Source of the DNA: an uncultured Prevotellaceae bacterium | Lineage (GTDB): Bacteria; Bacteroidota; Bacteroidia; Bacteroidales; Muribaculaceae | DNA length: 64,000 nucleotides | Assembly: GCA_900316835.1 (NCBI GenBank) | Contig: ONEL01000017.1 | Location: 1-64,000 of the forward strand | Direction: 5' to 3' | Shown here: piece by piece, positions 21,953-51,203 of the stretch | Layout of the letters: each line of letters starts with the position of its first letter | Numbering within the stretch: the stretch's first letter is position 1 | The notes under the pieces: model-generated | Databases searched by the model: none | Told to the model about the DNA's origin: nothing | Seen by the model: only the letters and a program-made list of their open reading frames with translations | Made by a program: the position numbers and the translations under genes

Positions 21953-22035
21953 ATAAACTACGGATTATTCTGTGCAATTTTAGCGCAGCCGCACTTAACC
22001 ACTAATTTACACGAATTTACACTAATGTTAATTGG

Positions 22036-22170
22036 ATAAAATGCTCACGCTCGCAAGGCTTTGAGCTGGAGCTCAGCTTTGACTCGCTTAATCGCATTTT
22101 TGAATAAAATGCTCACGCTCGCAAGGCTTTGAGCTGGAGCTCAGCTTTGACTCGCTTAATCGCATTTTTG
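22036..22170. repeat. Two tandem 67-bp repeats (family a)
   Basis: Two identical 67-bp units (22036-22102 and 22104-22170) start ATAAAATGCTCACGCTCGC and end TCGCTTAATCGCATTTTTG. Degenerate copies in the opposite orientation occur at 47291-47428 and 47626-47660, and a two-armed hairpin version at 35637-35703. Non-coding. Confidence 0.85.
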
Positions 22171-22565
22171 TTAGTAATTGTTTGAAAAAAGTTATTCAAA
22201 AAGTCGCGCCTTGTGGCGTCAAAAAGCCGGCTATCGCCGGAATATAATGCGCCGTCGCGCTATAATTTAACGTGAGTTCGACGAAAATAAATAGCTGTAT
22301 ATCAGGCTGCTCCTCTAAGATAGAGGAGCTGTCGCGAAGCGACTGAGGAGTATGATAACTATCAAATGAGGTGACATACTCCCCCCGACCCCCTCTAACT
22401 TAGAGGGCGAGTTGCTAACGCAATGATTTTCAAATGATAAATTCATCGAACTCACGTTAATTTAATTGTTTGTAATTGTTTGCAATTGTTTGAAAAAAAG
22501 TTATCCCAGCAATTGTCTTTAATGAATCCCCTCTAATGCACAAATCTTTTGTCCGTAATTGTCTT
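22171..22565. repeat. Intergenic repeat blocks b and d, split by a MITE-like element
   Basis: Block b (22171-22268) carries hairpins GTCGCGCCTTGTGGCG and GCCGGCTATCGCCGG. Block d (22459-22565) carries TTTGAAAAAAAGTTATCCC and CCCCTCTAATGCACAAATC. Both recur inverted and directly adjacent to each other at 47429-47625. In this copy they are separated by the element at 22269-22458. No gene is supported between 21953 and 22747. Confidence 0.8.
22264..22463. mobile_element. MITE-like 190-bp element with 17-bp terminal inverted repeats and 5-bp target duplication
   Basis: The element spans 22269-22458. Its left end AACGTGAGTTCGACGAA matches the reverse complement of its right end (AACGTGAGTTCGATGAA) at 16 of 17 positions. 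AATTT flanks both sides (22264-22268 and 22459-22463). The same flanking sequence without the element is present, inverted, around 47516-47535 with one AATTT. The inside is non-coding but highly structured: GCTCCTCTA-AGA-TAGAGGAGC, GTCGC-GAA-GCGAC and CCCTCTAACTTAGAGGG hairpins. No transposase gene is in the window. A damaged copy lies at 47714-47930. Confidence 0.75.
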
Positions 22566-47297: not shown

Positions 47298-47660
47298 AAA
47301 TGCGATTAAGCGAGTCAAAGCTGAGCTTGCTCAAAGCCTTGCGAAAGTTTTTTTAAAGACAAAAATGCGATTAAGCGAGACAAAGCATGAGCTTGCTCAA
47401 TGCGTTGCGAGCGTGAGCATTTTATTTAATTACGGACTAATGATTTGTGCATTAGAGGGGATTTATTAAAGACAATTGCTGGGATAACTTTTTTCAAACA
47501 ATTGCAAACAATTACTAACAATTAAATTATAGCGCGACGGCGAATTATATTCCGGCGATAGCCGGCTTTTTGACGCCACAAGGCGCGACTTTTTGAATAA
47601 CTTTTTTCAAACAATTACTAACAAAAATGCGATTAAGCGAGTTAAAGTTTTAGCTGGGGG
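47291..47660. repeat. Repeat mosaic (families a, d, b, a), empty site of the MITE-like element
   Basis: In order: two inverted family-a copies (47291-47345, 47352-47428), block d inverted (47429-47520), block b inverted (about 47521-47625) and a partial a copy (47626-47660). Read on the minus strand, b runs straight into d (CGCGCTATAATTTAATTG) with a single AATTT, whereas at 22.3 kb the 190-bp element lies at that point. No gene is supported between 47225 and 48111. Confidence 0.8.
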
Positions 47661-47684: not shown

Positions 47685-47975
47685 AGGGCGTGCTTCGCAC
47701 TTGAAATTAAATTAACGTGAGTTCGACGAAAATAAATAGCTGTATGTCAGGCTGCTCCTCTAAGATAGAGGAGCTGTCGCGGAGCGACTGAGGAGTATGA
47801 TAACTATCAAATGAGGTGACATACCCCCCCCGACCCGCTCTTTCAGCATCAATGGGCTACGCCTCGCCAATAGCAAAACAAGTTTTGCTGCTGGTCTCGG
47901 CTTGCTCCATTGGTCTAACTTAGAGATATTAATTTTTTAATCAATTTTAAGCGAAGCGCCCATTACTGCTGGACA
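47685..47975. repeat. Family-e repeat interrupted by a damaged MITE-like copy
   Basis: GGGCGTGCTTCGCACTTGAAA at the left and AATTTTAAGCGAAGCGCCC at about 47943-47961 are the two ends of family e, read inverted relative to copies A and B. The interior is a second copy of the 190-bp element (47714-47930). The sequence past 47961 continues to match bases 1-27 of the window, inverted. Confidence 0.7.
47714..47930 (+). mobile_element. Damaged second copy of the MITE-like element
   Basis: Starts AACGTGAGTTCGACGAA and follows the 22269 copy closely through the GAGGAG and TCGCGGAGCGA hairpins to about 47840. It then carries a block of roughly 75 bp not present in the other copy (TTCAGCATCAATGGGCTACG onward), resumes with CTAACTTAGAG, and lacks the right inverted repeat. 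It lies directly after AAATT, the complement of the AATTT target seen at 22264. Confidence 0.65.
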
Positions 47976-50656: not shown

Positions 50657-51203
50657 CAAAATCATAATAGGCATTGACCCAGGCACTAACGTCATGGGCT
50701 ATGGGCTATTAGGAATCAAGGCTGGCAAGCCTTCGCTCATAGCTATGGGAGTGCTGCAACTGAGCAAACTTGATGACCATTACATGCGCCTGCGACGCAT
50801 CTACGACCGCGTGTTAAGCCTTGTGGAAGAATTTCTTCCCGACGAGCTGGCCATCGAAGCTCCTTTCTATGGCAAGAATGTGCAATCGATGCTTAAGCTG
50901 GGACGAGCTCAAGGAGTGGCGATGGCTGCCGCATTGGGTCGCCAGGTGCCCATTGCTGAGTATGAGCCACGCAAGATTAAGATGGCTATAACAGGCAATG
51001 GAGCAGCCAGCAAGGAGCAAGTGGCGATGATGCTACAGCGACAGCTAAGCATTAATCCCGCCGACATGCCCAGCTTGCTCGACGCCACCGACGCTCTTGC
51101 CGCTGCCCTGTGCCACTACTACGAGAGCAAGAAACCCTTTGCCAGCACCGCAAGCAAGTCGTGGAAAGACTTCATCGCTCACCATCCCAACCGCGTGGTT
51201 TAG
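50637..51203 (+). CDS. ruvC: Holliday junction endonuclease RuvC, 188 aa
   Basis: The RNase H-fold catalytic residues are Asp14 ([14 protein letters not shown]), Glu74 ([11 protein letters not shown]), and Asp149/Asp152 ([14 protein letters not shown]). It cuts four-way DNA junctions as a dimer with RuvAB. Full length for Bacteroidota. Translationally overlapping with the DUF4286 gene. Confidence 0.95.

Follow-up and report, generated by a model that had tools for sequence, protein, structure and literature searches.

An IS982-derived MITE in an uncultured Muribaculaceae genome whose hairpin core matches repeats bounding DUF559 nuclease genes

Introduction

What is the 190-bp segment bounded by inverted repeats at 22269-22458 of the window (the whole stretch of DNA analysed here, 64,000 nt from an uncultured Muribaculaceae bacterium), by what is it moved, and where do its hairpins come from? 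An earlier note, written from the letters of the window, had read the segment as a MITE-like element present in both a filled and an empty state, moved by a transposase encoded elsewhere with a 5-bp target duplication, and had suggested that its unusually strong hairpins might act in RNA. Its proposed checks, namely a search of the genome and its relatives for the 17-bp ends, an alignment of many copies, and a hunt for a transposase with matching ends, have been carried out on the window's own genome (G000; 2.84 Mb in 38 contigs, labelled C) and across the genus. Taken together, the results indicate that the element is very probably an IS982-derived MITE whose core copies, without an ORF, a palindromic repeat known from the borders of DUF559 genes, and hence a nested composite.

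The Element and Its Second Site in the Window

Direct reading and a search for the ends place the element (plus strand, 22269..22458) precisely where it had been claimed to lie. The left terminal inverted repeat (17 bp, AACGTGAGTTCGACGAA) occupies 22269..22285 on the plus strand and the right one (17 bp, AACGTGAGTTCGATGAA) 22442..22458 on the minus strand, the two (AACGTGAGTTCGAYGAA) pairing at 16 of 17 positions, and AATTT is read on either side as the left (22264..22268) and right (22459..22463) copies of a target-site duplication. With up to three mismatches allowed, the 17-bp end is matched three times in the window, against 0.12 expected. At 190 bp, and with inverted ends of this quality, the element lies within the range of MITEs, which have terminal inverted repeats and stay below about 500 bp; it holds no long frame and hence no transposase gene, and any frame open from end to end occurs in only 3 of the 44 distinct two-ended copies collected from many species of the genus. 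Another repeat family, AAAATGCGATTAAGCGAG...CTCACGCTCGCAAGG, is present nearby at 22032-22167, as two tandem 68-bp copies that are 99% identical, and again at 47300-47430.

The empty site proposed within the window is real as a pattern, as the flanks of 22264-22463, joined over one AATTT, match the minus strand of 47428..47633 over 207 nt with 5 mismatches and 1 gap (the single AATTT corresponding to the plus-strand AAATT at 47524-47528). It is nevertheless not the same locus in another state: at 47.5 kb the repeat that surrounds the element is present as a paralogous copy, which lacks the MITE. The damaged second copy reported at 47714 was also recovered (47714..47925, plus strand), with 97% identity to the window element over 128 nt; it is preceded by AAATT (AATTT on the opposite strand) and keeps its left end intact, while the right end is missing beyond about 47925 and the core contains an extra, hairpin-like palindromic insert. 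Inserts of this type (about 70-85 bp, CAATGGGCTACGCC...TTGCTCCATTG; window 47842-47914) lie inside hairpin 4 in a number of MITE copies (also loci L009, L012, L015, L017-L019, and L025) and constitute a third level of nesting.

Copies, Target Duplications, and a Filled/Empty Pair Between Strains

A blast search of the element against its own genome returned 63 matches, and the end sequence alone gave 60, compared with 3 for a reversed control; across the genus the 17-mer end was found in 73 of 101 genomes, with the reversed control almost empty. Nineteen two-ended copies, 119-289 bp in length, were compared in the own genome, all 19 of them intergenic, and alignment of the copies revealed a dispersed family with sharp, shared boundaries. 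Identical flanking words of 4-6 bp accompany 16 of these 19 copies and are absent from the other three; random re-pairing of left and right flanks (10,000 trials) yielded a mean of 3.5 and a maximum of 11. Genus-wide, 31 of the 44 distinct two-ended copies carry duplications of 4-6 bp, nearly all of the form A...T. The fixed length of 5 bp that the earlier note had given the duplication is rejected, with copies showing 4, 5, or 6 bp.

A filled and an empty state of one locus is available from a different comparison. On contig C14 of assembly G087 (near 51147), a copy 98% identical to the window element lies between ATTT and ATTT (...AAGTATCTATTT[190 bp]ATTTACATAATATGG), and at the corresponding place on C31 of the window's genome (near 15094) the sequence ...AAGTATCTATTTACATAATATGG runs uninterrupted through a single ATTT, with flanks that are 998/1000 (99.8%) and 983/1000 (98.3%) identical between the two. 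The region G087:C14:49000-53500 (L233) is near-identical to the window's genome, yet it sits in an assembly that represents a distant congeneric species. As G087 is distant overall (its aroA matches at 46%) and this contig is nearly identical, the contig therefore probably belongs to a strain of the window's species and was binned with G087, or else reflects a recent transfer. Under either origin the insertion is recent, and the pair, unusually clean at the level of strains, demonstrates recent movement of the MITE. That such patterns arose by recombination between dispersed repeats or by assembly error is extremely unlikely: the window locus does consist of nested repeats and the genomes are fragmented assemblies, but the strains differ by an exact 190-bp element and by two copies of ATTT versus one within otherwise near-identical flanks, and target duplications recur at many unrelated sites.

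The Parent Insertion Sequence

The hunt for a transposase with matching ends led to complete insertion sequences in related genomes and to a decayed remnant in the own genome. The complete elements are 1025-1042 bp long, carry perfect or near-perfect ends identical to those of the MITE, are flanked in most cases by A...T duplications of 4-6 bp, and contain a single ORF for a transposase of about 304 aa, as expected of the roughly 1-kb, one-ORF IS982 type. Family assignment was made on the full-length transposases of these relatives, two of which scored 262 and 256 bits against NF033520 (IS982; cut-off 130) and also matched PF13612. Ends of IS982-family elements typically begin 5'-AC and their target duplications are short and variable (3-9 bp); the 4-6 bp duplications of the IS and MITE copies fall within that range, whereas the ends of every complete IS copy read begin with AAC instead, which counts against an IS982 origin. 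The remnant in the own genome (C37:2687-3157) retains both ends and a truncated transposase ORF, for which Pfam and NCBIfam searches gave no match. It was the only trace of the matching group found when an intact IS982 transposase was sought across the own genome, so the acting enzyme must have been lost, left unassembled, or supplied from elsewhere. In a scan of viral contigs for the end sequence, 7 contigs matched, and one classed as viral (IMGVR_UViG_3300028591_008308; L236) has two facing end copies 1039 bp apart, the size of a complete IS982-type element, at the contig edge.

Similarity between MITE and IS continues past the 17-bp repeats, with the first 22 nt or so of the MITE equal to the right IS end, while the last 38 nt or so of the MITE resemble the left IS end. 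Because the matches reach this far, the MITE is, on sequence comparison, an IS982 derivative, oriented opposite to the IS as written here. The idea of a non-autonomous element served by a transposase encoded elsewhere is accordingly well supported by the copies and their duplications, the filled/empty pair, the relatives' IS982 elements with identical ends, and the remnant in the own genome. As a mechanism, an IS982-family insertion sequence would have lost its transposase gene, leaving a MITE with about 22 nt and about 38 nt of the original ends; an IS982 transposase would then act in trans, binding the 17-bp ends and carrying the MITE to AT-rich intergenic sites, where repair of the staggered cut would produce a 4-6 bp duplication with A as its first and T as its last base.

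The Hairpin Core

Between the IS-derived ends lies a palindromic core (22307..22413; element positions 39-145) that is predicted to fold into four plus-strand hairpins. Hairpin 1 (GCTCCTCTA-AGA-TAGAGGAGC; 22309..22329) is supported by folding and by both-side changes in 2 of its 9 pairs, hairpin 2 (GTCGC-GAA-GCGAC; 22331..22343) and hairpin 4 (CCCTCTAACTTAGAGGG; 22391..22407) by folding and covariation, and hairpin 3 (GGAGTATG...CATACTCC; 22347..22382) additionally by comparison of the core arms. The strength of the hairpins, as remarked in the earlier note, is evident: the minimum free energy of the element is -73.3 kcal/mol, compared with a mean of -40.4 for shuffled sequences (z = -8.1; minus strand, z = -8.7). 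Over 25 copies, pairing is preserved in 96.4% of cells, and both sides have changed in 38 cells versus 14 in shuffles, the changes being concentrated in hairpins 1 and 2. The palindromes are thus real and maintained, and covariation is compatible with either a DNA or an RNA basis.

The suggested action in RNA is not supported. Domestication of the core as an RNA element, be it a terminator, an mRNA stabiliser, or a small RNA, and its retention for that role would fit the very stable fold on either strand, the compensatory changes seen for hairpins 1 and 2, and the intergenic position of all 19 own copies, often directly downstream of genes. This is nonetheless unlikely, given that no U-run follows the hairpins, that the core differs in length between copies, many of which have it interrupted or deleted, that covariation is also displayed by palindromic DNA, and that an Rfam scan of the element and its relatives matched nothing within the MITE itself and otherwise gave weak chance hits and a neighbouring 5S rRNA. 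Moreover, the same palindromes occur on DNA, in coding frames and as inverted repeats around DUF559 genes, and for the latter reason a DNA explanation is the simpler one.

DUF559 Genes and the Origin of the Core

The DUF559 domain is a Vsr-like nuclease domain of the PD-(D/E)XK type, and genes encoding it are present in 27 of the genus's 101 genomes. Of the genes read, about half have clear bounding inverted repeats, up to 37-43 bp long and each with a hairpin, and one example, TCCCCCTCTAAGATAGAGGGGGC.GGGGGAGTATGA, equals an arm of the MITE core. Hairpin 3 of the MITE is formed by the inner ends of both core arms; in the long element a DUF559 ORF takes up this place. The bounding repeats differ by species (GAGTATG, GCGTTGA, and GCGTGTG variants), and in all 8 genomes with both readable the variant of the MITE core is that of the DUF559 repeat (0.0024 under random pairing, a figure made more favourable by species relatedness). 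The core hairpin is also commoner in genomes with DUF559 (17/27) than in those without (15/74; Fisher p = 9e-5), as is the presence of ten or more core repeats (9/27 vs 7/74; p = 0.011), associations that shared ancestry and the gene's own flanking repeats inflate; the 7 genomes with at least ten core repeats and no DUF559 gene speak against the link, although several of them are incomplete. The two DUF559 clades carry differing repeat sequences.

The full 107-nt core recurs without IS982 ends at 85-88% identity, in tandem on C7 and singly on C10 and C21 of the own genome. On C7 (C7:1862-4462; L063) the host gene is aroA. Its 866-aa frame holds the EPSP synthase domain in two parts, interrupted by roughly 410 extra codons that keep the frame and comprise an array of the palindromic repeat and a DUF559 domain lying between the two halves; aroA of relatives is mostly an uninterrupted frame of roughly 410-480 codons. 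The interrupted AroA scores barely above the TIGR01356 cut-off (287.5 vs 287.25) and lacks, beside the insertion, the CDDxxAM motif conserved in relatives, and for these reasons may be impaired. On C21 and C10 the repeat is in frame in two further genes (486-aa and 472-aa frames), and is always translated as ...SPSKIEG.GGSM...HTPQSLRASSSILEEQ...; the minus frames of the window element yield peptides very like this one. Insertions of DUF559 in the middle of a recognised domain with the frame kept open number three (aroA, a DegT aminotransferase, and a polysaccharide synthesis protein). Outside aroA, DUF559 domains that are read in frame lie within, or at the beginning of, genes for a polysaccharide synthesis protein, a DegT aminotransferase, a DUF2520 protein, and RibD (L162, L167, L168, and L173, in G090, G001, G086, and G097).

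As judged from these alignments, the core is not IS sequence and is instead an ORF-less copy of the palindromic repeat that bounds DUF559 genes. It is very unlikely that the MITE is a plain internal-deletion derivative whose core grew from the IS, with the likeness to DUF559 repeats a convergence of C/G-rich palindromes. Both MITE ends do match the IS (22 and about 38 nt), and simple palindromes may look alike; however, the likeness spans 33 nt and takes in the non-palindromic GGGGGGAGTATG part, core variants track species in 8 of 8 cases, and the 107-nt core exists apart from IS982 ends, whereas the IS ends read in relatives show nothing resembling it. The interior of the MITE would accordingly represent an ORF-less miniature of the DUF559-bounding repeat, lodged within the IS982-derived ends to form a nested composite of two selfish repeats, with the IS982 MITE presumably the outer and the second repeat the inner member.

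The ends GAGGGTGT...ACACCCTC define a second MITE-like family of about ten copies, with the same core hairpins and a mostly fixed spacing of 109 bp. Sites of this family in the own genome (L188-L197) are C4:21117, C19:191622, C20:127652, C22:26774, C22:303902, C25:13253, C25:99222, C29:15097, C29:48472, C32:66484, and C32:173742. The core may have entered the IS982 MITE through this family and not directly from the DUF559-linked repeat, a route that is consistent with the shared core and with the nesting of GAGGGTGT ends inside IS982-MITE ends at C14:99835 and C24:19134; it is somewhat disfavoured, as the IS982-MITE core resembles the GAGGGTGT family no more closely than it does the aroA/DUF559 repeats.

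From the DUF559 origin of the core, a broader proposal can be put forward tentatively, in the knowledge that it is rather more apt to fail than to hold. DUF559 genes and their 37-43 bp hairpin-bearing inverted repeats would form a class of selfish elements in which the nuclease spreads the repeats, with aroA and other housekeeping genes among the in-frame targets, and ORF-less miniatures would multiply as palindromic repeats and be taken up by two or more unrelated MITE families that transposases drive, the window element among them. Mobilisation of the core repeats by DUF559 would, if true, supply a function for a domain that is still annotated as of unknown function. Among the titles and abstracts covered on DUF559 with palindromic or in-frame repeats, none treats DUF559 as a mobile element.

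Comparison With Known Systems

Taken by itself, the window MITE adds an IS982-derived member to an already known kind, the larger point being the origin of its interior, in that the hairpins are the bounding repeats of DUF559 genes, some of which lie in frame inside host genes. Complete elements of the IS982 family (NF033520) share its 17-bp ends and 4-6 bp A...T duplications and encode a 304-aa transposase, whereas the window element has no ORF; the ends start with AACGTG, compared with the AC typical of the family. The precedent is MITECca01 of Cardinium (Bacteroidota), an IS982-derived MITE of about 240 bp with ISCca4 as its parent, which likewise occurs in many copies, lacks a transposase, and has IS982-type ends in common with the parental IS (PMC9769881). 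The two are likened by description, and a hairpin core from a second repeat is not described for MITECca01 in the parts of that report covered here (PMC9769881). BrickBuilt of Porphyromonas gingivalis is also a Bacteroidales MITE with repeat sequence within its ends, although its interior is a minisatellite, in contrast to the nuclease-linked-repeat hairpins of the window MITE (PMC4596501).

As for the nuclease, DUF559 has been reported to be common among Vsr-like endonucleases (PMC12907096), and EDxHD is a listed family of homing endonucleases (PMC6083498). A small nuclease gene embedded within a host gene is a feature in common with such Vsr-like/EDxHD enzymes; the DUF559 insertions differ in having no intron or intein and in being read through in frame.

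If DUF559 does drive the spread of its repeats, the system would parallel the Rickettsia palindromic elements (RPEs), with a candidate mobility enzyme attached. RPEs are not known to have an associated nuclease gene. They are palindromic repeats of about 150 bp found in frame within unrelated genes (PMC10969869), and, in mode of insertion, which is the sole feature compared, the core repeat behaves likewise, as a palindrome in frame within the 866-aa aroA and the 486-aa and 472-aa frames. Unlike RPEs, the core repeats described here also bound DUF559 genes and sit inside MITEs.
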